From: Deltaproteobacteria bacterium
GTDB lineage: Bacteria > Desulfobacterota > Syntrophia > Syntrophales > Smithellaceae
DNA length: 41,430 nucleotides
Assembly (NCBI GenBank): GCA_012729055.1
Contig: JAAYDW010000017.1
Coordinates: 1-41,430, forward strand
Reading direction: 5' to 3'
Part shown: positions 3,150-15,477 of the stretch, piece by piece
Layout: each line of letters starts with the position of its first letter
How positions within the stretch are numbered: position 1 is the stretch's first letter
The notes under the pieces: generated by a model
What the model was told of the DNA's origin: nothing
Database searches by the model: none
What the model saw: only the letters and a program-made list of their open reading frames with translations
Translations under genes and position numbers: made by a program

Positions 3150-4229
3150 TCAGGTCCGGATGCGGGAAAACAGATAGGCGGCCAGCCCGGCAAACAAAAG
3201 GTTGGAGGCCCAGGCGGCCAGTGTTACGGGCAGAATGCCCGACCGTCCCAGAGACATGCAAAACGCGTGGACGATCCAGTAGGAAAAGCCGATGAAGATT
3301 CCGGCGGCCAAACTCTGCATCAGGCCGCCGCTGCGTTCCGAGCGCACCGAAAACGACATGCCGATAAAAACGAGAATGACGCAGACAAACGGAAACGCGA
3401 GTTTGCCCTGCAGGTCGACCCGATAGCGCGCCACGTCGTACCCTTCCGCTGAAATTTTATTGACATAGCGATTGAGCTCGAAATACCCCATTTTTTCCGC
3501 GTCCTTTTGAATGATTTTGAAATCACCGGGTTGTTCGCGAATGTCGATGACCTTTTCCTCCGACCACTCCAGGGACGGCGCGCGGTTTTCATCGAATGTC
3601 GTCACGAGCAGATGGGAGAAGATCCAGCGGTTGTCCTTCCAGGCAGCCTCGCGCGCATCGATGCGCATTTTCAGCGTGAAGTCGGGATGCAGACGATGAA
3701 TCGTGATGCCGCGCAGAATGTTTTTTTCGACGTCGAACATTTTAAAATTGTAAATGGCGTTGTGGCCGCGGTACCAGATTTCGTCCTGCTTGAAAAATCC
3801 CATGGCCTTTTGTTTCTGCACCTCCACCTTGATGAGATGCTCCGTTTTCTGGATGGAAGCCGGCGTAACGAGTTCCGTGAAGAAAAATAAAAAGACGCCG
3901 ACGAGAATTGCCACGCCCAAGGCGGGAAGCGCCATGCGGTAGAGGCTGACGCCGTTGGCTTTCATGGCTGTGATTTCACTGAATTTGGACAGGAAACTGT
4001 ACGTGAGGAGCGTGGACAGCAAAATGGCGGCGGGCAGGGTCAGGGAAACGATCATGGGAATCGAATAAAAAAAGTAAGAGGCCATTTGCGCGGGCGTGGC
4101 CTGATTGCTGAGAAACATGCGGATTTTTTCGAAAAAATCAACAATCAGGTAAAGCGCGATAAAGGTCGCGCAGGTGATGAGGAAGAAGCGCAGAAATTCC
4201 TTCAGGATGTACTTATCGAGCAGTTTCAC
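3150..4229 (-). CDS. lptG: LPS export ABC transporter permease LptG
   Basis: LptG with LptF forms the inner-membrane permease that, powered by LptB, extracts lipopolysaccharide and passes it to LptC and the periplasmic bridge. The 359-residue protein has the YjgP/YjgQ layout: an N-terminal helix after MKLLDKYILKEF, paired helices near residues 55-110, a periplasmic beta-rich domain about 125-265, and three C-terminal helices. The start is a GTG overlapping the stop of the upstream gene as GTGA, with GAGG eight bases before it, so the two are translationally coupled. Assignment as LptG rather than LptF rests on second position, smaller size and N terminus; the paralogues are similar. Confidence 0.88.
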   Translation of the reverse strand: MKLLDKYILKEFLRFFLITCATFIALYLIVDFFEKIRMFLSNQATPAQMASYFFYSIPMIVSLTLPAAILLSTLLTYSFLSKFSEITAMKANGVSLYRMALPALGVAILVGVFLFFFTELVTPASIQKTEHLIKVEVQKQKAMGFFKQDEIWYRGHNAIYNFKMFDVEKNILRGITIHRLHPDFTLKMRIDAREAAWKDNRWIFSHLLVTTFDENRAPSLEWSEEKVIDIREQPGDFKIIQKDAEKMGYFELNRYVNKISAEGYDVARYRVDLQGKLAFPFVCVILVFIGMSFSVRSERSGGLMQSLAAGIFIGFSYWIVHAFCMSLGRSGILPVTLAAWASNLLFAGLAAYLFSRIRT

Positions 4230-5395
4230 CGGTTGACCTCATCTTTGTCCCTGATTTCCCGGACATAAGCGGCAAGCCGCTGGAAGAGGGATATTTCCTT
4301 GGCGGACAGGTAAAAAAGGACCACGCCCAAAACGGCGAAAACAACATTGGGCGTCCAGACGCCGACAACCGGGGCCAGCCGGCCGGTTTCCACCAGGGCT
4401 TCACCGCCGATCCGCAACAGGTAGTAGGTGGAGACGATGATGATGCCGACGGCAAAGCCGCGGGATTTGACGGCGCGGTGGCTGGTGATGCCCAAAGGCA
4501 GCGCCAGCAACCCGAAGAAAATGCAGGACAGGGGGATCGAAAACTTCTTGTGTACTTCAATGGCCAGTTCCCGGACCTCCGCGTCTTTCATTCCCGGTTC
4601 ACGCATCCGCGCCAGAAGCTCGGTGAGCGTCATGTCCGTGCTGGACTTGTGTTCGTCGGTAATCGCTCTGAACGTTGTGGATAAATCCAGATTGACATCA
4701 TAGGACGTGAAATCGACTTTGCGGTAGTTTTTCAGGTCGGGGCTGACCGTATGAATCGAGCCGTTTTCCAGCCGCAGTTTGACGATCATCAGTTTGGAAT
4801 CCGCAACGAGGTAGGCCTTTTTCGCCAGGACCGTGTTGGGCTCGCCGATGATGCGGGTATCCGAAATCAGCACGCCCTCCATGTATTCGCCGTCCACCGG
4901 AATCTTGTCGGCGTAGATTAAAATGCCCTTGAAGTCCGCGTTGAAGACTTTTTCCTTGATGCCGATGCTTGCGTTTTGCGTGGCCAGTTGAAAGAGCAGC
5001 TTCTTTACGGCGAAATTGCTCTGCGGGACCAGAAAAAATCCGATGAGGATGGCGCAGGTGAAAGCCAGAAGCGAGGCAAAGGCCACGGGAAGGAACATCT
5101 GCACCAGGCTGACGCCCGACGCCTTGAGGGAGGTGATTTCATTGTCGGCGGAAAACCGGCCCATGGCGATCAGAATGGAGACCAGAAGCGCGATGGGAAT
5201 GGTAAAGAGCAGAAAATTGGGCATGATGAGGACGATCAGATGGCCGACGTCCACAATACGGATGCCCTTGTTGACCATCAGGTCCATGATCTGGAGAATT
5301 TTCCCCATCAGCAGGACGAATGTCAGGACAAACAGAATAATGAAGAAGGGGACGGCAATCTCCCGGAATATGTAGCGGTGAATAATTTTATTCAT
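4226..5395 (-). CDS. lptF: LPS export ABC transporter permease LptF
   Basis: This is the partner permease of LptG in the lipopolysaccharide export complex. The 389 residues show an N-terminal helix (about 14-34), a helical pair around 50-120, a periplasmic jellyroll-type domain (about 130-265) and C-terminal helices (about 275-370). The segment FSADNEITSLKASGVS (near 85-100) is typical of the family coupling region facing the ATPase. The gene is first in a two-gene operon transcribed away from the aminoarabinose operon, and both act on LPS. No clear ribosome site precedes the ATG at 5395. Confidence 0.88.
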   Translation of the reverse strand: MNKIIHRYIFREIAVPFFIILFVLTFVLLMGKILQIMDLMVNKGIRIVDVGHLIVLIMPNFLLFTIPIALLVSILIAMGRFSADNEITSLKASGVSLVQMFLPVAFASLLAFTCAILIGFFLVPQSNFAVKKLLFQLATQNASIGIKEKVFNADFKGILIYADKIPVDGEYMEGVLISDTRIIGEPNTVLAKKAYLVADSKLMIVKLRLENGSIHTVSPDLKNYRKVDFTSYDVNLDLSTTFRAITDEHKSSTDMTLTELLARMREPGMKDAEVRELAIEVHKKFSIPLSCIFFGLLALPLGITSHRAVKSRGFAVGIIIVSTYYLLRIGGEALVETGRLAPVVGVWTPNVVFAVLGVVLFYLSAKEISLFQRLAAYVREIRDKDEVNR

Positions 5396-5439
5396 GGTGT
5401 CTGCATAAAATTTTTGGGAAAACTAACATGTATCGATGA

Positions 5440-5455
5440 TTTTGCACAAGCAAAA
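5440..5455. repeat. Operator-like palindrome between lptF and the Ara4N operon
   Basis: TTTTGC (5440-5445), ACAA and GCAAAA (5450-5455) form a perfect inverted repeat with 6-bp arms in the 191-base divergent region (5396-5586). It lies about 45 bases upstream of lptF and 50 bases upstream of the -35 at 5505. The size fits a dimeric repressor or activator site. No known box was recognised. Confidence 0.4.
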
Positions 5456-5504
5456 CATGCGTCCTTCAGAAAACAGATTTTATGAGCAACATCGTATTGT
5501 TTTA

Positions 5505-5533
5505 TTGACAGTCGGAGGCATTTTGCCTATATT
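5505..5533 (+). promoter_or_regulatory. Strong sigma70 promoter of the glycosyltransferase/arn operon
   Basis: TTGACA (5505-5510), exactly 17 bases, then TATATT (5528-5533): six of six and five of six consensus matches. Start is predicted near 5540, about 47 bases before the first ATG. Because the following nine genes overlap or nearly touch, this probably drives all of 5587-15477. Confidence 0.85.
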
Positions 5534-5586
5534 CCTGTCACATTTTTTAACGCTTTCCTGTCGAAGAGAAGGGAATTTTGCACATC

Positions 5587-6816
5587 ATGAAAGTCGATAC
5601 CATGCGCCGGATAGATTACTACGCGGGCGTTCCCCTCTGTTTTCTCGGAACGCTGCTCGTGAAACTGGGCCGTCTGTTCGGCAGTTCCCCCCGCCGGGCG
5701 CCGGCAAACGTTCTGCTCGTCGAGTTGTCGGAAATGGGCAGCGCCATTCTGGTGGATCCGGCCATGAGGAAACTGCGCCGGGAAACGGGCGCCAGTCTTT
5801 ACTTTGCCATTTTCAAGAAAAACAAGGCGAGCCTCGATCTTTTGAAGACCGTCCCGGATGAAAACATTTATACCATTCGGGAAAACAGCATGCTGCTTTT
5901 TGTGCTGGACACGCTGAAATTTTTTTTCTGGACGCGCCGGAAAAAAATCGACGCCGTCATCGATCTGGAATTGTTTTCCCGCTTTACGGCGCTGCTTACC
6001 GGTTTTTCCGGCGCGTCGACGAAAGTGGGATTTCACGCTTTTTTTAACGAAGGCCTCTACCGCGGCGGTTTTCTTACCCATCGCGTCGCCTATAATCCCC
6101 ACATTCATATCGCGGCAAACTTTATCGCGCTGGTGAACGCCCTCATGGCGGAAAAAGAAGAGGTTCCCTATTCCAAGGCCAGGGTATCCGCCGGGGAACT
6201 CGTCCTGGCCAAAACGACGGTTTCCGCCGGAGAAAAGGAGGCGGTGCGGGACATCATCCGCTCTTCGTATTCCGCATTCGATCCGCAAAAGGATAAAATC
6301 GTGCTCATCAATCCCAACGCCAGCGAACTGCTGATTCAAAGACGCTGGCCGCCGGCCCACTATGCAAGGCTGATCCGGATGATTCTGGAAAAGCATCCTC
6401 GGGCGCTGGTTCTCATCACCGGCGATCCCCGCGAGCGCGAGGAAGCGGAGGAGCTGAAAAATCAAGTCGGCCACGACCGGTGCGTAAATTTCGCGGGGAA
6501 AGTCCGCTTTGCCGAGCTTCCCGCCCTCTACAATGTTTGCGAATTCATGGTCACCAACGATTCGGGACCGGGCCATTTTGCCGCCGTGACGGACATGCCG
6601 ACCTTTGTTCTCTTCGGTCCGGAAACGCCGGCGCTTTATGGATCGCTGGGCCGGACCACGCCGATTTTTGCGGGACTCGCCTGCTCTCCCTGCGTGAGCG
6701 CGGCAAACCACCGCAAAACCGCCTGCCGGGACAATGTCTGCCTGCAGGTGATTCAACCCGAAGACGTCTTTGCCGTTATCGCCCCCCATCTGGAGCGCAT
6801 TCATGCCCAAAACTGA
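5587..6816 (+). CDS. Glycosyltransferase family 9 (heptosyltransferase-like) protein
   Basis: Family 9 enzymes such as WaaC and WaaF add heptose to the LPS core from ADP-heptose. The 409-residue product has a hydrophobic N-terminal stretch (about 12-32, YYAGVPLCFLGTLL), an N-terminal domain beginning VLLVELSEMGSA, and the C-terminal nucleotide-sugar motif TNDSGPGHFAA followed by FVLFGPETP. Near the C terminus a cysteine cluster (CSPC, then two more Cys) is often seen in this family. ATG 5587 has AAGGGA 12 bases upstream; a TTG at 5578 and an ATG at 5602 are alternatives. It heads the operon, suggesting a role in LPS core or O-chain assembly. Sugar specificity cannot be read from the sequence. 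Confidence 0.85.
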   Translation: MKVDTMRRIDYYAGVPLCFLGTLLVKLGRLFGSSPRRAPANVLLVELSEMGSAILVDPAMRKLRRETGASLYFAIFKKNKASLDLLKTVPDENIYTIRENSMLLFVLDTLKFFFWTRRKKIDAVIDLELFSRFTALLTGFSGASTKVGFHAFFNEGLYRGGFLTHRVAYNPHIHIAANFIALVNALMAEKEEVPYSKARVSAGELVLAKTTVSAGEKEAVRDIIRSSYSAFDPQKDKIVLINPNASELLIQRRWPPAHYARLIRMILEKHPRALVLITGDPREREEAEELKNQVGHDRCVNFAGKVRFAELPALYNVCEFMVTNDSGPGHFAAVTDMPTFVLFGPETPALYGSLGRTTPIFAGLACSPCVSAANHRKTACRDNVCLQVIQPEDVFAVIAPHLERIHAQN

Positions 6817-8248
6817 CCTGCGGATATGGATCCTGATCGGCGGCTTTTCCCTCGTTCGCCTGATCGTGGCGCCTTTTTTCGGCCTGGGCGTGGATGAGGC
6901 CCATTACGTTCTTTATGCGGAATACCTGGACTGGAGCTATCTGGACCATCCGCCCCTGGTAGGCTGGCTGCATACTCCCTTTTATTATATTTTCGGCGCC
7001 AATGAATTTCTGGCCCGCCTGCCGGCCGTTCTTCTTTTTGTAGGCACGTCCTGGTGCTGCTACCGGTTCATGCTCCGGGTGACGCAGTCGGCGCGCCTGT
7101 CCCTCTGGGCCGTTTTTGCGCTCAACGGCTCCTTTATGCTGAACGCCCTGGGGCTGATGCTGCTGCCCGACTCCATCCTGCTGTTGCTGGTTTTTCCGCT
7201 GATTTTCACCGCCCGGCGCCTGGTGAACGAAAAAAAGCCGCTGGACTTTCTGTGGCTGGGCGTTCTTCTGGGATTGATGGGGCTTGCCAAATACACGGCC
7301 ATCTTACTGGTGCCGCCGCTTCTCGTCTTTTTCGCGCTCAAAAAAAGATACGACATCCTTTTCTCACCCTACATGTTTCTGGCGGCGGTTATTGCTCTAC
7401 TGATGATTACGCCGGTAGTCTACTGGAATGCCGTTCATGACTTCGCCAGTTTCAAATACCAGGGCGCCCATGTTTTCGGCTCGCTGACAAAGGGCCTGGA
7501 AAACTTTTTCGTGTCGCTTGCGGCGCAGTTCGGCGCCTACAGCCCTTTTCTGTTTGTTGTCGCCGTCTACGGTTTTTTCCAGGCCCTGAAGGCCAGGGAA
7601 GACGAATTGCGCCTGGCCGTTTTGTTCGGCGCGACAATCATGATTTTCTTTCTGGCGACTTCCGTTACCGAAAAAACGCTGCCGCACTGGCCGTCGATTT
7701 TCTACCTGCTTTTCATTCCGGTCGGGACAGCTTACTTGTTGAGGTCTCCGGAAAAATGGAAAAGAAATTTCCTCTATATCGGAGCGGGCGTGAGCCTCCT
7801 GGTCCTGCTGCTGATTTACGCGGAGCTCGCGGGCAAATTTGTTCCTTTCCCGGATTATCGGTCGCCGTTCCGCGATATTTACGGCTATCCGGAAATTCTG
7901 GCGCGCGCGGATGAAGCGGTGAAGCAAAATCCGTCGCCGCGGCCCAAGGCGCTGGTCGTGATGAACTGGACGATGGGCAGCCGGGTGATGTATTACAATC
8001 TTCCCTACGGACATGACGTATTTGTTTTCGATTTCCGTCCGGATCAGTTCGATATCTGGCAGACCAAATCCATGACGGGATATGATTTGCTGTTTCTGAA
8101 CACCCATTTCGACCGTCTCGACGTCGGGCGCTTTTTGCGCTGCGACAGCGTCGCTGACGCAGGCCAAATGAATTTGGAGATAAACGGCAAAAAGGTGAAC
8201 CGCGTGGAATATATCTGGTGCGGCAATTACCAGGGGATCAAAAAGTGA
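6803..8248 (+). CDS. GT83-type (ArnT/PMT_2) membrane glycosyltransferase
   Basis: This polytopic inner-membrane protein (481 residues) belongs to the family that transfers sugars from a polyprenyl phosphate to lipid A or LPS core on the periplasmic side. The first loop carries the acidic pair in GVDEAHY and the family motif DHPPLVGW; many hydrophobic helices follow, then a soluble C-terminal domain of about 130 residues. The ATG at 6803 overlaps the preceding gene by 14 bases and has GGAG at seven bases; an in-frame TTG at 6770 is less likely. A second GT83 gene lies two genes downstream. The two are clearly different in sequence, so this one may use another sugar or acceptor. Confidence 0.82.
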   Translation: MPKTDLRIWILIGGFSLVRLIVAPFFGLGVDEAHYVLYAEYLDWSYLDHPPLVGWLHTPFYYIFGANEFLARLPAVLLFVGTSWCCYRFMLRVTQSARLSLWAVFALNGSFMLNALGLMLLPDSILLLLVFPLIFTARRLVNEKKPLDFLWLGVLLGLMGLAKYTAILLVPPLLVFFALKKRYDILFSPYMFLAAVIALLMITPVVYWNAVHDFASFKYQGAHVFGSLTKGLENFFVSLAAQFGAYSPFLFVVAVYGFFQALKAREDELRLAVLFGATIMIFFLATSVTEKTLPHWPSIFYLLFIPVGTAYLLRSPEKWKRNFLYIGAGVSLLVLLLIYAELAGKFVPFPDYRSPFRDIYGYPEILARADEAVKQNPSPRPKALVVMNWTMGSRVMYYNLPYGHDVFVFDFRPDQFDIWQTKSMTGYDLLFLNTHFDRLDVGRFLRCDSVADAGQMNLEINGKKVNRVEYIWCGNYQGIKK

Positions 8249-8871
8249 AAAAGAGATGGATCGCCCTCATTATTATTTTGTCGAGCGCATTATTATGCGG
8301 TGTGTCCTACGCCTTCTGGGATATCCCGCTCGCGTATTTCTGTCTTTACATGAATCCGGCGATCCTGGACGTTGCCGACGTCATCACGCAGGCCGGCGAT
8401 TCCTTATGGTATTATGTCCTGCTTATTCCTGCGTTTGTGCTGATGCGGGTTGTAAAGAAAAACGAACTTTGGTCCTCCCGGATTCTTTACGTTTTTCTGT
8501 CTCTGACCCTGTCCGGCATTTTCAACGCTGGACTCAAATGGCTGGCGGGCCGGAACCGGCCGGTCAATCTTTTCGAAGACGGCCTGTTCGGGTTTACCTT
8601 TTTTCAAATTGACTTTATTTACGAATCGACATCTTTCCCTTCAGGGCACTCGGTGACAGCCTTTGCCGTGGCCACCGCCGTCGGCTTCATCTTTCCCCGT
8701 TGGCGGATCGCGGCATTTGTCGGGGCGGCCCTGATTGCCGCCAGCCGGGTTCTGCTTACGGCTCATTTTTTAAGCGATGTCATTGCCGGAGCGGCGGTCG
8801 GAACTCTCTGCGCGCTGGGGGTTAAATACTGGTTCGACAGGATACATGTTGATCTTCAAGAAAGTGTGTAG
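8245..8871 (+). CDS. PAP2-superfamily lipid phosphatase
   Basis: PAP2 enzymes remove phosphate from lipids such as lipid A (LpxE, LpxF), undecaprenyl pyrophosphate or phosphatidylglycerol phosphate, usually with a periplasm-facing active site. All three signature segments are intact: K-(x6)-RP as KWLAGRNRP, PSGH in SFPSGHSVTA, and SR-(x5)-H-(x3)-D in SRVLLTAHFLSD. About five or six membrane helices are visible in 208 residues. The GTG at 8245 overlaps the previous stop as GTGA and has AGGGG eight bases upstream. Location between two lipid A-type glycosyltransferases suggests lipid A or undecaprenyl-linked dephosphorylation, but the substrate is not proven. Confidence 0.85.
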   Translation: MKKRWIALIIILSSALLCGVSYAFWDIPLAYFCLYMNPAILDVADVITQAGDSLWYYVLLIPAFVLMRVVKKNELWSSRILYVFLSLTLSGIFNAGLKWLAGRNRPVNLFEDGLFGFTFFQIDFIYESTSFPSGHSVTAFAVATAVGFIFPRWRIAAFVGAALIAASRVLLTAHFLSDVIAGAAVGTLCALGVKYWFDRIHVDLQESV

Positions 8872-10546
8872 ACAGACGATGCAAAAACGATATGTCCTGT
8901 TGATCATTCCCCTGATTCTGTACGTTGCGCTGCTGGGCGTTTTGCCGCAGATGGAGCCGGACGAAGCGCGCTACAGCCTCATTGCCAGCGCGATGAACGA
9001 AACGGGCAATTTCGTGACGCCGCACATCAAGTCCACGATTTACCTTGAGAAGCCGCCGCTGGTGTCCTGGGTGACGGCCGTCTTCTTCAAAATCTTCGGT
9101 GAAAATGATTTTTCCGCCCGGCTTTTCATCGGCCTTTGCGCCTGGGGCTGTATTGTGCTGACCTTTTTTATCGGACGGCGTTTCCGCGATGAAAGGACGG
9201 GTCTGTATGCGGCGGCCCTCCTGACCGTGTCCGTTTTTCCGTTTGTGCTGGGCCGGATCAACATTCTCGACATGCCGCTTACGCTGTTCATCTCTCTTTC
9301 CGTCTGGTTCGGCTACCTGTCCGTCAGTCCGGGCGGCAGGCCCTACCTGTCCTGGCTGTTTTATCTGTCCTGCGCTCTCGCCTTCTTAACCAAGGGGATC
9401 ATCGGTGTGGTCTTTCCTTTCGCTATTCTCGTCCTCTGGCTGGTCTGGGCCAGGCGCTGGCGGCAGATCCTCAAGCTGGTCTCTCCGGCGGGCATCGGAA
9501 TCTTTCTTCTTGTCGTTACGCCCTGGATTTATCTGGCGCAACGCGAAAACGCGGACTTTCTGTGGTTTTTCTTCGTGCGCGAACATTTCCTGCGTTTTAC
9601 AACGCAGATGCACGGCAAGACGGAGCCGTTTTATTACTTTGTGCCGATTATTCTGGCCGGCACACTGCCCTGGTCGATTTACCTGATCCGGGCGTGGGGA
9701 CACCATTTCCGGACCTATGTTTTTCAAAGGGATGACAACAAGCTCTTGGCCGTGTGGTTTTTGTTTATTTTCCTTTTTTACACGGCTTCTTCCTCCAAAC
9801 TCGCCCCCTATATCGCGCCGGTATTTCTGCCCGTGGCGCTCTGGGCCGGCAATCTCTTTCGCCATGCCGACGAAGCTCTCCCGGATCTGGCCGGGAAAAG
9901 AAAAATCATTTACCGAACGGTTTTGCTCCTGTTCTTCCTGATCGTTCTTGTCGCCTGTCTGCTGCCGCCTTTTTTGAAGCAGTATTCCGATCCGTCCAGG
10001 GGGCTGGTGGTCATGACGTCTGCGAGCTGGTGGCTTTACATCATGCCGTCGCTCCTGGCGGCGGGACTGATGGTTTTTCTTCCGGACCGCGTGGCCCGGA
10101 AAAAAGGGACCGGCTGGTTTTTCAGCATTTATCTGCTCTCAGGGCTTTTGCTGGCCGGCATGCTCTTTCCGCTCAATGATTTTCTGGCGCCTTACCGCAG
10201 CGCGCTCGTTGTCCGCGAGGCGATTGCCCGCCATCTGCCGGCGGGCACGCCCCTGTACCAGTATCGCGTCAATTTTTACGGAATTGATTTTTACAACCGG
10301 ATCCGGACGCCGGTGGTCGAGGATTTCGGAGAATTGATTGACGGCATCGCCAAAATGCCTCCCGCCGAGCGGAAAAAATATTTCTTGACGCCGGTCGAAT
10401 TCATCGAAAAAGTATCCGGAGAAAAAGAAGTGTACTGCATCACGCAGCATCAGGACAAATTGAAGCAGCTGCAATGGAAATACGACTCCGTCGATATCCT
10501 CTGGGAGAACGGGGCGTTTTATCTGTTGCGTATCCGCAACCCGTAA
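8846..10546 (+). CDS. arnT: Undecaprenyl phosphate-aminoarabinose:lipid A transferase (ArnT-like)
   Basis: ArnT moves 4-amino-4-deoxy-L-arabinose from undecaprenyl phosphate to lipid A phosphates on the periplasmic face, lowering negative charge. The 566-residue protein begins with a helix, then a loop with the catalytic-type acidic pair in MEPDEARYSLIA and EKPPLVSW, then about a dozen hydrophobic segments and a C-terminal periplasmic domain, as in the GT83 family. The ATG at 8846 overlaps the PAP2 gene and has AGGA at short spacing; ATG 8879 is a plausible alternative. Its place directly before arnB makes it the better ArnT candidate of the two GT83 genes. Confidence 0.82.
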   Translation: MLIFKKVCRQTMQKRYVLLIIPLILYVALLGVLPQMEPDEARYSLIASAMNETGNFVTPHIKSTIYLEKPPLVSWVTAVFFKIFGENDFSARLFIGLCAWGCIVLTFFIGRRFRDERTGLYAAALLTVSVFPFVLGRINILDMPLTLFISLSVWFGYLSVSPGGRPYLSWLFYLSCALAFLTKGIIGVVFPFAILVLWLVWARRWRQILKLVSPAGIGIFLLVVTPWIYLAQRENADFLWFFFVREHFLRFTTQMHGKTEPFYYFVPIILAGTLPWSIYLIRAWGHHFRTYVFQRDDNKLLAVWFLFIFLFYTASSSKLAPYIAPVFLPVALWAGNLFRHADEALPDLAGKRKIIYRTVLLLFFLIVLVACLLPPFLKQYSDPSRGLVVMTSASWWLYIMPSLLAAGLMVFLPDRVARKKGTGWFFSIYLLSGLLLAGMLFPLNDFLAPYRSALVVREAIARHLPAGTPLYQYRVNFYGIDFYNRIRTPVVEDFGELIDGIAKMPPAERKKYFLTPVEFIEKVSGEKEVYCITQHQDKLKQLQWKYDSVDILWENGAFYLLRIRNP

Positions 10547-10556
10547 AGGATGAATG

Positions 10557-11705
10557 ATGAATATTCGCAAAGAGTTTTTACCGTTTAGCCGCCCCTCGAT
10601 CGGCGAGACGGAAGTCGACAGCGTGGTTGCCTGTTTGAAATCAGGCTGGATCACCACCGGGGCGATCTGCAAGACGCTTGAGGACCGGTTTTGTGAATTG
10701 ACCGGCGCGTCCGGAGCCGTCACCCTCAGTTCGGCCACGGCCGGCATGCATCTGATGCTGAAGCTTTTGGAGCTGCAACCCGGCGATGAAATTCTGACGC
10801 CGTCGATGACCTTTGCCTCCACCATCAACATGATTTTGCTGCACGGGGCCAAACCGGTTTTTGTCGACATCGAATACGACACACTCAATGTGAATGCCGC
10901 CTGCCTCGAGGAAAAAATAACGCCGCGGACACGGGCGATCATTCCGGTGCATTTCGCGGGCGCCCCCGCGGATATGGATTCCATTCTCCTTCTGGCCCGC
11001 AAATACCGTCTGGGCGTGATTGAGGATGCGGCGCACGCGGTCGGAACCTACTATAAAGGCGTCCATGCCGGCGGTTTCGGCCGGCCGGCGATTTTTTCCT
11101 TTCACCCGATCAAAAACATCACGACCGGCGAAGGCGGTCTTGTTTCGCTAAACGACCCGGATCTGGAAAAAAAATTGCGTCTCGCCCGCTTTCATGGAAT
11201 AGAGCGAGACGCGTGGAAAAGATACGGGAAGGGGGGCAATCCCTCCTACGATATCGTGGAGCCGGGCTACAAGTACAATCTGCCGGATCTGCTGGCGGCG
11301 CTGGGCGTGGCGCAGTTCGACCGGTGGCGGGAACTCAACGACCGGCGCCGGATGCTGGCGGAGCTTTATCGCGACGGCCTGCGGGGAACCGTTGGCCTGG
11401 ATCTGCCGCAGGTTCCTTCCTATGATCATGTCCACGCCTGGCACCTGTTCATCGTCAAGATCAAGGGGATGTCCCGCGACCTGTTCATGCAGAAACTGGC
11501 GGATTACAACATCGGCTACGGCCTGCATTTTCCGCCCGCGCATGAGCTGTCCTGCGTGGAGGCAAAGGCGGGCGGCGGCGGGCCTCTTCCGGAAACGGAG
11601 CGGGCGGCGGATAAAATCATTTCTCTGCCTCTGTTTCCGGATATGACGGAGACGGACGTCCAATACGTTTGTGAGGCCATAAAGGAGATTTTGAAAAATG
11701 TCTGA
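10557..11705 (+). CDS. arnB: UDP-L-Ara4O aminotransferase ArnB
   Basis: ArnB is a PLP enzyme of the DegT/DnrJ/EryC1 family that converts UDP-4-keto-pentose to UDP-L-Ara4N using glutamate. The N terminus FLPFSRPSIGETEV and the segments LKSGWITTG, SSATAGMH, IPVHFAGAPAD, IEDAAHA and GYKYNLPDL are ArnB-like. The PLP-binding lysine is in FHPIKNITTGEGG (residue 186). The length of 382 matches E. coli ArnB. AAAGGA lies six bases before the ATG at 10557; an ATG one codon earlier (10554) is also possible. The stop overlaps the next start by eight bases. Confidence 0.95.
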   Translation: MNIRKEFLPFSRPSIGETEVDSVVACLKSGWITTGAICKTLEDRFCELTGASGAVTLSSATAGMHLMLKLLELQPGDEILTPSMTFASTINMILLHGAKPVFVDIEYDTLNVNAACLEEKITPRTRAIIPVHFAGAPADMDSILLLARKYRLGVIEDAAHAVGTYYKGVHAGGFGRPAIFSFHPIKNITTGEGGLVSLNDPDLEKKLRLARFHGIERDAWKRYGKGGNPSYDIVEPGYKYNLPDLLAALGVAQFDRWRELNDRRRMLAELYRDGLRGTVGLDLPQVPSYDHVHAWHLFIVKIKGMSRDLFMQKLADYNIGYGLHFPPAHELSCVEAKAGGGGPLPETERAADKIISLPLFPDMTETDVQYVCEAIKEILKNV

Positions 11706-12648
11706 TATACGGATCTCGGTGGTCATTCCGGTGTACAACGAGGAAGCCAACCTCAAGGCGCTGATGGACCGGCTGTTGCCTGTCATGGAGTCTCTGTCCA
11801 GGCCGTTTGAAATTATCCTGGTGGACGACGGCAGCCGCGACGCTTCACTTGCTCTGTTGAAGGAATTCACCGCGCACCCGTCCGTTCGCGTGGTGGAGCT
11901 CACGCGCAACTACGGCCAGCACGCCGCCATCATGGCGGGATTTTCGGTCGTCCGCGGCGATATCGTGCTGACAATGGATGCGGATCTGCAAAACCCGCCT
12001 GAGGAAATTCCCAACCTGGTGCGGGTGATGGAAGAGGGGGACTACGATGTCGTCGGAACCATCCGCAAGGGACGCAAGGACTCTTTCCTGCGCATTTTCC
12101 CTTCCAAGATTGTCAACATGGTGGCGCGGAAGATTACCGGCGTCAGCATGCGCGACTGGGGCTGCATGCTGCGGGCCTACAATCGGTCCGTGGTGGAGCG
12201 GATGATCGCCTGCCACGAACAGGCGACTTTCATTCCCGCCCTGGCCACCGTTTTCGCCAAGCGCGTCACGGAAATCGAAGTGGCCCACGAAGAACGGTTC
12301 GGCGGAAAATCCAACTATCCGTTGAGGAAGCTCATCAATTTGCAGTTCGATCTGGTGGCGTCCTTCTCGGATTTGCCCATCAAGCTGATCATGTACGGCG
12401 GAATTCTGATGTCGCTTCTGGGGGTCTGCTTCGGCGGGTTTCTGGCGTTCGCCCGACTGGTTTACGGCGTGCGCTGGGCGGCGGAAGGCATTTTTACGCT
12501 CTTTGCAATTTTATTCGTGTTTGTCGGCCTCCAGTTTTTTGCCCTGGGCGTGATCGGAGAGTATATCGGCAGGATCTTCCGGGAAGTCCGTAAAAGGCCT
12601 GAATACGTCATCGAACACATTTACAGCCGGGAAGAGGACCGCCGGTGA
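11698..12648 (+). CDS. arnC: Undecaprenyl-phosphate Ara4FN transferase ArnC
   Basis: ArnC is a family 2 glycosyltransferase that places the formylated aminoarabinose from UDP onto undecaprenyl phosphate on the cytoplasmic face. The N-terminal GT-A domain has SVVIPVYNEE, VDDGSRD and the DAD metal motif in MDADLQNPPEE. The segment MRDWGCMLRAY is characteristic of ArnC. Two C-terminal membrane helices (about 235-260 and 270-295) anchor it. At 316 residues it is close to the E. coli enzyme (322). AAGGAG at 11682-11687 precedes the ATG, which lies within the arnB gene end. Confidence 0.94.
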   Translation: MSDIRISVVIPVYNEEANLKALMDRLLPVMESLSRPFEIILVDDGSRDASLALLKEFTAHPSVRVVELTRNYGQHAAIMAGFSVVRGDIVLTMDADLQNPPEEIPNLVRVMEEGDYDVVGTIRKGRKDSFLRIFPSKIVNMVARKITGVSMRDWGCMLRAYNRSVVERMIACHEQATFIPALATVFAKRVTEIEVAHEERFGGKSNYPLRKLINLQFDLVASFSDLPIKLIMYGGILMSLLGVCFGGFLAFARLVYGVRWAAEGIFTLFAILFVFVGLQFFALGVIGEYIGRIFREVRKRPEYVIEHIYSREEDRR

Positions 12649-13565
12649 AAGCGATTGTTTTGGCCTATCACAATATGGGGCTTGCCGGTCTGGCCGCCCT
12701 CGAGAGACACGGCTTTGAGATTGCCGCCGTTTTTACGCATGAAGACGATCCGCAGGAAAACTGCTGGTTCGGCTCCGTGAAAAGCTGGGCGGAAAGCAGG
12801 GGGGTCGACTGCTTCACGACCGATGCGATCAACGCGCCGCAGTGGATAAAAAAAATCGCCGGTCTGAAACCGGATGTCCTTTTTTCTTTTTATTACCGGA
12901 AAATGATCCGCCCGGAGCTCCTGGCGATTCCGCGCATCGGCGCTTTCAACCTGCATGGATCGCTTCTTCCGGCTTACCGGGGCAGATGTCCTGTTAACTG
13001 GGTCCTGGTCAATGGAGAGGAAGAGACGGGCGTTACGCTGCATGTCATGGTGGAAAAACCGGATGCGGGCGACATCGTCGGCAGCAGGGCCGTGAAAATC
13101 GATTTCGAGGATACGGCGAGAACCCTGTACGACAAGCTTTGCGCGGCGGCCGGCCGGCTGCTCGACGACGTGCTGCCGGATATGGTGCAGGGCCGGATTT
13201 CGCATCGCAGGCAGGATTTGTCCCGGGGCAGTTATTACGGCGGACGGAAGCCCGAGGACGGGCGCATCTCCTGGGACTGCACCGCCGTCGGGATCTACAA
13301 TCTGGTCCGCGCCGTGACGGACCCCTATCCGGGAGCGTATGCCTTTGCGGACAGCGGCGAGAAAGTTCTGATCTGGCGGGTCCGGCCGGTTCCGTTTGCG
13401 GCCGACGGCAAGCCGGGCGACGTGATTTCCGACGGCCAATCCGTGCTTGTGAAAACCGGGGATGGTGCTATAAGGCTCCTGGACATCGAAGTATCCGGTT
13501 TAAGAATGAAGGATGCCGACATCGGGACATACTTTAAAACGGGAAAGGTGAAAAAACTGACATGA
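12645..13565 (+). CDS. arnA (formyltransferase part): UDP-L-Ara4N formyltransferase (stand-alone ArnA N-terminal domain)
   Basis: This enzyme formylates UDP-L-Ara4N with 10-formyl-tetrahydrofolate, a step that pulls the pathway forward. Catalytic residues Asn102, His104 (GAFNLHGSLLP) and Asp140 (EKPDAGD) sit at exactly the E. coli ArnA numbers as I recall them. The formyltransferase domain (about 1-200) is followed by its C-terminal beta subdomain (about 205-300). In E. coli this is fused to the dehydrogenase; here the protein stops after 306 residues and the dehydrogenase is a separate gene overlapping by ATGA. The GTG start overlaps the arnC stop as GTGA. Confidence 0.93.
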   Translation: MKAIVLAYHNMGLAGLAALERHGFEIAAVFTHEDDPQENCWFGSVKSWAESRGVDCFTTDAINAPQWIKKIAGLKPDVLFSFYYRKMIRPELLAIPRIGAFNLHGSLLPAYRGRCPVNWVLVNGEEETGVTLHVMVEKPDAGDIVGSRAVKIDFEDTARTLYDKLCAAAGRLLDDVLPDMVQGRISHRRQDLSRGSYYGGRKPEDGRISWDCTAVGIYNLVRAVTDPYPGAYAFADSGEKVLIWRVRPVPFAADGKPGDVISDGQSVLVKTGDGAIRLLDIEVSGLRMKDADIGTYFKTGKVKKLT

Positions 13566-14596
13566 AAATTTTGATACTGGGCGTAAACGGTTTTATCGGA
13601 CACCATCTGGTCAACCGGATCCTGGACGAAAAGCCCGATTGGCAGGTATTCGGCATGGACCTGGGAACGGAACGGATCGGCGCGGCGCTGAACAACCCGC
13701 GGTTCAATTTTCTGGAAGGGGATATTTCGATCAACAAGGAATGGATTGAATACCACATCAAGAAATGCGATGTAATCATGCCGCTGGTGGCGATTGCCAC
13801 CCCGAAAGCTTATGTGGAGGATCCCATCGGCGTCTATCATCTGGATTTTGAAATGAACGTCAACATCATCAAGCAATGCGTGAAGTATCACAAGCGCGTT
13901 GTCTTTCCCTCCACGTCGGAGGTCTATGGGGCGTGCAACGATCCGGAATTCACGGAAGACGAAAGCTATCTGGTCGTGGGGCCCATCAGCAAGGAACGCT
14001 GGATTTACTCCTGCTGCAAGCAGCTGCTCGATCGCGTGATCTACGCTTACGGCACCCGGGGTCATCTCGAATTCACCCTTTTCCGGCCGTTCAACTGGAT
14101 CGGGCCGCGGCTGGATTCGCTCGATACGGCCAAGGAAGGCAGCTCGCGCGTCGTGACGCAGTTTATCGCCGAACTGCTTTTGAAGCGGCCGATCAACCTG
14201 GTGGACGGCGGCCGGCAGAAGCGCTGTTTTACCTATGTCGATGACGGCATCGCCGCCCTCATGAAGATCCTGGAAAACGCCGGCGACATCTGCAAAAACC
14301 AGATCATCAATATCGGCAATCCGGACAACGAATGCTCCGTGAAGGAACTGGCCGCCATTCTGAAAAAAATGTTCCAGGAGCACCCGGATCACCGCCGCGA
14401 TACGGTTTATTCGGACATCATCGAAGTGCCGGCCGATCGTTTTTACGGCAAAGGCTACCAGGACATTTATACACGCAAGCCCAGCATCGAAAAAGCCAGA
14501 ACACTGCTCGGCTGGGAGCCGAAAATCGATCTGCACGAGTCTCTGCGTCTGACGCTCAATTCGTTTCTGGAAGAAAACAAGGTCGTCCTCCTGTGA
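13562..14596 (+). CDS. arnA (dehydrogenase part): UDP-glucuronate oxidative decarboxylase (stand-alone ArnA C-terminal domain)
   Basis: The enzyme oxidises and decarboxylates UDP-glucuronate to UDP-4-keto-pentose, the substrate of ArnB. It is a short-chain dehydrogenase/reductase: GVNGFIG (residues 7-13) binds NAD, STSEVYG carries the Ser/Glu pair (119-120) typical of ArnA, and the catalytic Tyr149 and Lys153 are in YSCCK. The arginine of TRKPS near the C terminus corresponds to the ArnA decarboxylation arginine. The 344 residues match the ArnA C-terminal half. ATG 13562 overlaps the formyltransferase stop, so the pair is translationally coupled and could form a complex like the fused enzyme. 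Confidence 0.93.
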   Translation: MKILILGVNGFIGHHLVNRILDEKPDWQVFGMDLGTERIGAALNNPRFNFLEGDISINKEWIEYHIKKCDVIMPLVAIATPKAYVEDPIGVYHLDFEMNVNIIKQCVKYHKRVVFPSTSEVYGACNDPEFTEDESYLVVGPISKERWIYSCCKQLLDRVIYAYGTRGHLEFTLFRPFNWIGPRLDSLDTAKEGSSRVVTQFIAELLLKRPINLVDGGRQKRCFTYVDDGIAALMKILENAGDICKNQIINIGNPDNECSVKELAAILKKMFQEHPDHRRDTVYSDIIEVPADRFYGKGYQDIYTRKPSIEKARTLLGWEPKIDLHESLRLTLNSFLEENKVVLL

Positions 14597-14619
14597 ACGG
14601 CTTTTCGGGATAGGTGTTT

Positions 14620-15477
14620 ATGGCTGTGCTGGGTTTGAAGATCGACGTGGACACCTACTGGGGAATGAAAAACGGTGTGCCCCGTCTACTGCGCGTTTTG
14701 AAAGATTTCGACGTCCGGGGAACGTTTTTCCTGAGCATCGGTCCGGACAACTCCGGACGTGCCGCACTGCAGCTCATCAAAAATCCTCTCTTCCTCAAAA
14801 AAATGCTGCGGACCAAAGCCCCTAGCCTTTACGGCTGGAAGACCGCCCTTTACGGAACGCTTTTGCCGGCGCCGATGATCGCCCTGTCCTTTCCCGATGG
14901 CGTCCGTCAAATCCTCGACGAGGGCCACGAGGTTCAGTTTCACGCCTGGGATCACCGCCGCTGGCAGGATGAACTGCCGGAGAAATCTGAAAAGTGGATT
15001 GTCGACTGGTTTGAAAAAGGGATTGAAGGCTATGGCAGGCTCACCGGACGAAAGCCTACGGCATTTGGCGCCCCGTCCTGGTTGATCGACGACCGCGTTT
15101 TGAACGTTATTAAAAGATATTCTTTTGAGTACCTCAGTTGCACACGCGCGAAAACGCCTTTTTTGTATGAAACTCTTCCTGTCCCGGAAATTCCGTCCGA
15201 TCTGCCTTGCTTCGAAGAGCTCGGTTCGGGAGATGATGTGGCCGTCCTCGCGGGTCTGCTGAAAGACGGAAAAAATCACGTCCTTCCGGTTCATGCCGAG
15301 GTTGAGGGGGGAATTTATGAGGAAAAATTTCGGAGGCTTCTGAAAAATGCGCTCGCGGCGGGGGCGAAAGTTACGCAAATAATTGAATTAAAAGAGACAT
15401 TGGATATAAACCTCCTTGTGCGGCGACGACACGAAATGGCGCTTTTACCGGGCCGGCATTCGCCCTGTGCTGTATAA
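14620..15477 (+). CDS. arnD: Undecaprenyl-phosphate Ara4FN deformylase ArnD
   Basis: ArnD removes the formyl group from the undecaprenyl-linked sugar so that Ara4N can be moved to the periplasm and used by ArnT. It is a polysaccharide-deacetylase-fold protein: the metal Asp of LKIDVDTYWG, the HAWDHRRW segment supplying His ligands, and FGAPSW are visible. Length is 285 residues (E. coli 296). GGGATAGG lies just before ATG 14620; a GTG at 14614 is the alternative. The basic C-terminal tail (RRRHEMALLPGRH) shows no recognised function. It is last in the operon, and no arnE/arnF flippase follows. Confidence 0.92.
   Translation: MAVLGLKIDVDTYWGMKNGVPRLLRVLKDFDVRGTFFLSIGPDNSGRAALQLIKNPLFLKKMLRTKAPSLYGWKTALYGTLLPAPMIALSFPDGVRQILDEGHEVQFHAWDHRRWQDELPEKSEKWIVDWFEKGIEGYGRLTGRKPTAFGAPSWLIDDRVLNVIKRYSFEYLSCTRAKTPFLYETLPVPEIPSDLPCFEELGSGDDVAVLAGLLKDGKNHVLPVHAEVEGGIYEEKFRRLLKNALAAGAKVTQIIELKETLDINLLVRRRHEMALLPGRHSPCAV

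Follow-up and report, generated by a model that had tools for sequence, protein, structure and literature searches.

Does a bacterium whose genes for capping lipid A with 4-amino-4-deoxy-L-arabinose (Ara4N) lie beside those of its lipopolysaccharide (LPS) exporter also carry an exporter adapted to the capped lipid? The question is raised by a stretch of 41,430 nucleotides (contig JAAYDW010000017.1 of assembly GCA_012729055.1; hereafter the window) from a Smithellaceae (Syntrophales) genome, in which an operon with the arn genes of the Ara4N pathway is divergent from lptF and lptG. We found that arn status changed repeatedly within the family and that it covaries with residues of LptF, above all Ser252-Thr253; this covariation and the divergent lptFG are additions to the picture given by a preliminary description of the locus. 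We consider it somewhat probable that this lineage caps its LPS with Ara4N constitutively and that its exporter has become adapted to the capped lipid A.

The window is contig C81 of the genome under study (G000; 3.36 Mb, completeness 100); G numbers denote the genomes compared and L numbers loci or stretches. The relatives, which include a Smithellaceae bacterium, Smithella sp. D17 and Syntrophales metagenome-assembled genomes, are anaerobic syntrophs, and on this general knowledge of the lineage the earlier guess of a probably anaerobic host appears sound. The family sample consists of 51 genomes, 32 with arn (arn+; 31 called by the dehydrogenase gene and G016 by arnT) and 19 without (arn−), some of the latter assemblies being incomplete.

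An Ara4N operon divergent from lptFG

Nine co-directional genes, with ends that overlap or are closely spaced, occupy positions 5587 to 15477 of the plus strand. They had been described as a GT9 gene, a GT83-type gene, a PAP2 gene and arnT-B-C-fmt-dh-D (fmt and dh, the formyltransferase and dehydrogenase halves of ArnA), forming an Ara4N operon, and the coordinates, Pfam and NCBIfam families, solved relatives and intact motifs bear out both the gene list and, as far as sequence can tell, the assignment to Ara4N. The features of the region are as follows.

3150-4229, minus strand: lptG, LPS export permease (TIGR04408, 304 bits, above the cut-off of 240)
4226-5395, minus strand: lptF, LPS export permease, residues 252-253 Ser-Thr (TIGR04407, 262 bits, above the cut-off of 230)
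5396-5586, no strand: divergent intergenic region common to lptFG and the arn operon (from the gene coordinates)
5505-5533, plus strand: sigma-70-like promoter TTGACA-17-TATATT (11 of 12 consensus positions)
5587-6816, plus strand: GT9 (heptosyltransferase-like) glycosyltransferase (PF01075, E 2e-26; no NCBIfam equivalog cut-off reached)
6806-8248, plus strand: GT83b, second GT83/PMT_2-type transferase (PF13231, E 5e-26; no NCBIfam match)
8218-8871, plus strand: PAP2 phosphatase/phosphotransferase (PF01569, E 8e-26; start uncertain, GTG 8218 or later)
8879-10546, plus strand: arnT (5ezm ArnT, E 1.8e-39; best NCBIfam NF009784, 178 bits, below the cut-off of 567)
10554-11705, plus strand: arnB (1mdo ArnB, E 9e-113; NF008658, 452 bits, below the cut-off of 631)
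11698-12648, plus strand: arnC (9bhc ArnC, E 6e-100; NF007986, 384 bits, below the cut-off of 529)
12645-13565, plus strand: formyltransferase half of arnA as its own gene (8gjh ArnA, E 1.9e-85; NF005414, 368 bits, above the cut-off of 316)
13562-14596, plus strand: dehydrogenase/decarboxylase half of arnA as its own gene (ArnA, E 6.5e-134; NF008872, 525 bits, above the cut-off of 294)
14614-15477, plus strand: arnD deformylase (8t0j ArnD, E 1.4e-40; NF011923, 196 bits, below the cut-off of 382)

The two ArnA halves, ArnB, ArnC and ArnD thus each match a solved relative, and motifs that we take to be catalytic are conserved. The dehydrogenase keeps PSTSEVYG and RKPSI; N102, H104 and D140 of the formyltransferase, presumably its catalytic residues, align with 8gjh ArnA; the ArnB lysine, presumably the pyridoxal phosphate site, aligns with that of 1mdo ArnB; and ArnT carries PDE and EKPP aligned with 5ezm ArnT, though its score is below the enteric equivalog cut-off. 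Scores below such cut-offs for ArnT, ArnB, ArnC and ArnD are as expected of a distant lineage. The PAP2 translation, by reading, carries KX6RP, PSGH and SRX5HX3D, which we take to be the PAP2 motifs. The likely arnT start is ATG 8879, the relatives' proteins starting MQK; the Pfam and NCBIfam queries began at 8239 (PAP2) and 8867 (arnT), which are not start codons.

The alternative raised in the preliminary description, that the real pathway lies at another arn locus with ugd and arnE/arnF, found no match in G000: the genome has one ArnA-type dehydrogenase, and the second match (80 bits) is a decarboxylase-like gene on contig C35. Three arn+ genomes have a second arnT-like gene, about 45% identical (G067, L267:5502-7166; G008:C2; G011:C393), which in G067 adjoins arnD.

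The intergenic region, aligned with those of five relatives, has a mean column identity of 83%, and both promoter hexamers are invariant in all six. The promoter is called on position and conservation, not on scan score, the scan having found 4 sites against 5.5 expected in shuffles, so that a single match is not unusual. The operon is probably expressed all the time from this strong, near-consensus sigma-70 promoter, which narrows the earlier suggestion of constitutive or co-regulated expression to likely unregulated expression.

The divergent arrangement is common in the family. Both flanks were readable in 24 of the 32 arn+ genomes, and in 22 of these lptF and the arn transcription unit are separated by no more than about 0.5 kb; in G023 the distance is about 3.4 kb, and in G027 the two lie apart. 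The other 8 genomes gave no verdict, because a contig ended or no lptG turned up. In other families lptF lies upstream of arn in G037, G043, G056 and L124, at most 1.0-1.3 kb from the next matched gene in G037 and G043. In arn− G002, G006, G010 and G018, lptG-lptF is followed directly by M23 and secA genes, an empty site.

LptF residues covary with arn status

On a tree of SecA and AHCY from 46 genomes (quick maximum likelihood, with a simple two-state model behind the p-values), arn status changes eight times, at least six of them on well-supported branches; without G003 there are seven changes (six supported), and without the incomplete G002 and G003 six (five supported). The fitted model of arn history needs losses only. 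Within the family the presence of arn has therefore switched at least five or six times, and the switches appear to be losses.

A first scan of columns in LptF, LptG and, as a control, AHCY placed LptF T253, A272 and S252 at the top, with no AHCY column in the best 25; AHCY is more conserved and so offers fewer columns. T253 is present in 26 of 28 arn+ genomes and in none of 15 arn− genomes (none of 14 without G003, which is misaligned here). On the SecA and AHCY tree, 4.9 of 6 independent pairs differ at T253 in the same direction and none in the opposite one (p 0.0625). Across 550 columns, in a scan where the residue followed was the commonest in arn+ genomes, which favours positive values generally, T253 again came first and seven of the eight best columns fell in LptF 251-281. 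Pagel likelihood ratios over 548 columns put T253 (27.4), S252 (27.3), A272 (24.0) and LptG K35 (21.5) in the top four places, compared with a maximum of 9.6 among 89 AHCY control columns. In 5000 simulated arn histories the family-wise p was 0.006 for T253, 0.027 for A272, 0.031 for S252 and 0.16 for LptG K35; the best AHCY column gave 0.45. Furthermore, LptF 246-290 is more associated with arn than the rest of LptF (Mann-Whitney p 6e-4).

G003 was kept in the pair analyses and dropped from the Pagel and simulation analyses, its LptF being broken and out of register at the columns concerned. Left out of the LptF comparison were arn+ G001, G014 and G067 (no LptG match) and G064 (gap at the columns), arn− G020, G033, G061 and G072 and, at the order level, G048, G050, G042, G036 and G054 (all without an LptG match). 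All 29 arn+ family genomes compared have Lys at LptG position 35; of 14 arn− ones, five have Lys and nine Arg.

Other Syntrophales families, which played no part in choosing the columns, show the same tendency, with weaker support and with exceptions: all 8 arn+ genomes and 1 of the 11 arn− genomes carry S252, and T253 occurs in 5 of the 8 and none of the 11 (Fisher p 1.2e-4 and 0.005, kinship ignored). Adding L124, an arn+ exception found later (Gly-Ala), gives 8 of 9 and 5 of 9 (p 9e-4 and 0.008, kinship likewise ignored). On a wider LptF and LptG tree, the seven supported pairs divide into 4.5 that change in the same direction, none that oppose it and 2.5 without a difference (p 0.0625). 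S252 is kept in five arn+ genomes in which arn is unlinked from lptFG (G027, G044, G046, G047 and G049), and also in G035, where the two are on separate contigs. An open-access literature search found no paper on arn-LptF covariation; we make no claim of a first report.

An AlphaFold2 model of LptF (mean pLDDT 84.9, falling to about 57 over residues 241-250, which immediately precede the site) matches solved LptF chains with Z 18.5-28.4 and places residues 252-253 after the final jellyroll strand (224-236) and before a long helix that we take to be TM4 (271-302), A272 being at the helix start. T253 aligns near R251 of Pseudomonas aeruginosa LptF (our numbering of that chain), five residues from S246, in a sequence alignment that is weak in this loop. 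This S246, which belongs to the same part of the periplasmic domain, is described as contacting bound lipid in simulations (PMC12738788).

Precursor supply and the flippase

The preliminary description had listed ugd as missing. This is so for the operon itself; elsewhere in the genome, contig C35 carries a gene for a UDP-glucose dehydrogenase (UGDH) of 458 aa beside a UDP-glucuronate-decarboxylase-like gene, so that the enzyme needed at the head of the pathway is encoded. This UGDH (L001:685-2061, minus strand) scores about 543-567 bits to one group of UDP-glucose 6-dehydrogenases in the PDB and at most 263 bits to the next; we take the first group to be human and other animal enzymes and the second to be bacterial, which would make it an animal-like UGDH in a bacterium.

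The missing arnE and arnF are indeed absent from the operon, and none of 59 genomes, G000 included, exceeded the cut-off of 92 bits in a search run with the ArnE model and not the ArnF model (best score 54 bits, in arn− G038). The sole SMR-family gene of G000 (L009:1465-1788, minus strand, on G000:C21) is Gdx/SugE-like by eye and scores 17 bits to ArnE. It sits between kdsC-like and lptC-like genes in a kdsA-kdsC-lptC-lptA-like cluster (named by eye), and was rejected as the flippase, its presence across the 59 genomes not tracking arn: an SMR match at E 0.001 is lacking in 14 arn+ genomes (G011, G012, G019, G024, G025, G027, G028, G029, G032, G043, G044, G046, G047 and G048), and arn− genomes with one include G003, G006, G010 and G018. 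Many genomes of the same genus, arn+ or arn−, have SMR genes that score similarly. GtrA was rejected likewise, with no match in G000 and scattered matches in 12 of 51 family genomes that do not track arn.

Small membrane open reading frames were absent from the arn clusters of 20 relatives' regions and of the named loci L120-L142, and one of 149 aa lies downstream of arn in L049. Such frames were recovered between arnT and arnB in the beta- and gammaproteobacterial loci L174, L179, L190, L191 and L197, and the scan therefore works. The flippase of unrecognised type implied by the preliminary description is consistent with these results, no ArnE-, SMR- or GtrA-type candidate tracking arn in searches that did not extend to DMT/EamA, DedA and MOP transporters. 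What emerges is a defined gap, an intact-looking Ara4N pathway with no recognised flippase, common to other deltaproteobacterial loci.

A separable glycan module in front of arnT

Of the 25 arn+ family genomes read that far, 18 have the whole GT9-GT83b-PAP2 set before arnT and five have part of it (PAP2 alone in G016 and G017; GT9 alone in G068; GT9 and a short PAP2 match in G025 and G059). It is entirely absent there in arn+ G008 and G012, and occurs without arn in G021, G070 and G071. The three genes are therefore a separable envelope-glycan module, and the earlier view of LPS-core genes built into the pathway is not supported. The S252-T253 signature follows arn and not the module in these same genomes (G021, G070 and G071 versus G008 and G012).

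A proposed adaptation of the exporter to capped lipid A

In the mechanism that we favour, Ugd, encoded outside the operon, would supply UDP-glucuronate, from which the ArnA dehydrogenase half, ArnB, the formyltransferase half, ArnC and ArnD would make undecaprenyl phosphate-Ara4N; a flippase of an unrecognised family would turn this donor over, and ArnT would transfer Ara4N to the lipid A phosphate(s). With constant expression, divergent from lptFG, LPS leaving the inner membrane would normally be Ara4N-capped. LptB2FG would have adapted to this, Ser252-Thr253 in the periplasmic linker between the LptF jellyroll and TM4 being kept with arn and replaced, most often by Lys253, when arn is lost; the pair may sense the cap or the bare phosphate. 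Of the 25 arn− genomes left when G003 is set aside, 12 have Lys at 253, more than have any other residue (D in 4, E, S and R in 2 each, and N, Q and G). GT9, GT83b and PAP2 would form their separate module within the same transcription unit. The covariation may reflect contact with Ara4N-capped lipid A.

Several observations weigh against this proposal. LptG was compared first because of a precedent that itself favours the proposal, the link between Ara4N and export through Burkholderia LptG D31: there, Ara4N is described as needed for LPS export and a D31H change in LptG as bypassing the need (PMC5377068, PMC5548808). The Asp31 of the present LptG aligns with this position, which is given as equivalent to Klebsiella K34 (PMC5548808). 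As a marker of Ara4N dependence it was rejected, every arn+ and arn− genome read having Asp or Glu; LptG position 34 (E versus Q, A, N or S) separated a small sample and failed family-wide, with E also in 8 of 14 arn− genomes. The p-value of the pair test in the family becomes 0.125 without G002 and G003, T253 was chosen as the best of many columns, and the Pagel fits ran into parameter bounds. LptF is also more associated overall than the control (median Pagel ratio 4.3 versus 3.0). The wider LptF and LptG tree has long branches, possibly misplaced, and its order-level pairs alone are too few. Some arn+ genomes depart from the signature (V253 in G028 and G046, R253 in G068 and G035, A253 in G047, G252/A253 in L124), arn− G006, G026, G073 and G051 keep S252, and the mixed residues at 253 in arn− genomes fit relaxed constraint as well as a specificity switch.

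The main rival, to which we give about half the weight of the favoured reading, is relaxed constraint after loss: an Arn operon of the usual kind, not specially linked to export, its adjacency to lptFG ancestral chance and LptF covarying with general envelope change. Repeated arn changes with mixed replacements suit this explanation, as does a background association of LptF and LptG above that of AHCY. Against it, the association is focused on LptF 246-290 and its best pair-scan columns on 251-281, and S252 persists where arn is unlinked; we regard it as unlikely, if the strongest of the alternatives.

Ara4N could also have another acceptor, a core sugar or other glycan, with ArnT or GT83b as transferase, in place of lipid A phosphate. 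Two GT83-type enzymes and a GT9 in one operon would fit this, ArnT scores far below the enteric cut-off (178 versus 567 bits), and Ara4N is described on the inner-core octulosonic acid of B. cenocepacia as well (PMC5377068). Of the two GT83-type enzymes only ArnT has an ArnT match, however, and arn persists without GT9-GT83b in G008, G012, G016 and G017, which makes this acceptor rather improbable.

LptFG of G028 (L239, genus g7) and G064 (L250, genus g2) are sisters in the LptF and LptG tree with support 100 and not in the SecA and AHCY tree, which suggests exchange of the lptFG block. That lptFG and arn were generally exchanged or lost as a block, with LptF residues hitch-hiking, would suit their adjacency in most readable arn+ genomes and this one discordant grouping, some block exchange perhaps occurring, but is very improbable, since S252 is kept in the five unlinked arn+ genomes, many LptFG groupings agree with the SecA and AHCY tree (by inspection, no formal congruence test), and lptFG has stayed with its usual neighbours in the four arn− genomes where the site is empty.

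Carried further, the favoured reading of an exporter adapted to capped lipid A would have Ser252-Thr253 and Ala272, perhaps with LptG Lys35, accept the cationic cap, making the Syntrophales exporter specialised for Ara4N-LPS; this we put forward tentatively. As part of the same tentative proposal, a protein belonging to neither the SMR nor the GtrA family would flip the donor lipid. If the specialisation is real, the place that accepts the cap is where the exporter must, or can, be remodelled once arn is lost, and it would be a second selectivity site, arisen by natural evolution, in addition to the LptG D31/K34 position. To our knowledge, the choice of LptB2FG among lipid A variants is known mainly from one Burkholderia suppressor and proteobacterial structures. 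A lineage with at least five or six changes of arn offers a natural experiment on exporter selectivity, with a named residue pair to test.

Comparison with known arn loci

The gene order had been described as different from the enteric one. Among relatives, arnT-B-C-fmt-dh is kept in 20 of 20 regions and arnD follows in 17 of 20, far beyond chance; the L052 region stops too early to judge arnD. L047 (G023) and L058 (G043) have the other arn genes, but no arnD turned up downstream of the dehydrogenase gene over the 4-6 kb read. Across 80 named loci, several of which end at contig ends and some of which have no arnT or arnB match, enterobacteria have B-C-A(fused)-D-T-E-F, most beta- and gammaproteobacterial relatives T-[E/F]-B-C-fmt-dh(-D), and most deltaproteobacteria T-B-C-fmt-dh(-D) with no E/F match, L144 and L145 being among the few that deviate. 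Non-enteric loci mostly share the arnT-first layout with split ArnA, and the order seen here, found also in B. thailandensis, is therefore the common non-enteric order minus the flippase.

The enteric arnBCADTEF operon (pmrHFIJKLM) has orthologous enzymes B, C, A, D and T; in the enteric loci compared it differs in its fused ArnA, its B-C-A-D-T-E-F order and its two flippase genes, and the present operon is not of that type. The Geobacter clusters (L149-L151, L153, L154, L156, L158 and L160) have T-B-C-fmt-dh where read whole (L149, L150, L151, L153 and L160), no ArnE/F match and no small membrane frame nearby; they differ in having no lptF or lptG match within the stretches of at most 10 kb, often less, on each side.

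The Burkholderia loci share the upstream arnT, followed by arnB-C-fmt-dh-D with ArnA split, and differ in an ArnE/F-like gene beside arnT and in having two transcription units, as described in PMC7835334; the B. thailandensis operons BTH_I2196-I2189 are given there as arnT, an ArnE/F-like gene, then arnB-arnC-(I2191)-arnA-arnD, with ArnA in parts. In the locus described here, arnT has no SMR gene next to it, GT9-GT83b-PAP2 stands in front and lptFG is divergent. The tie of Ara4N to LPS export is a feature reported for Burkholderia (PMC5377068), and by analogy we infer that export and capping would be coupled here as they are there.

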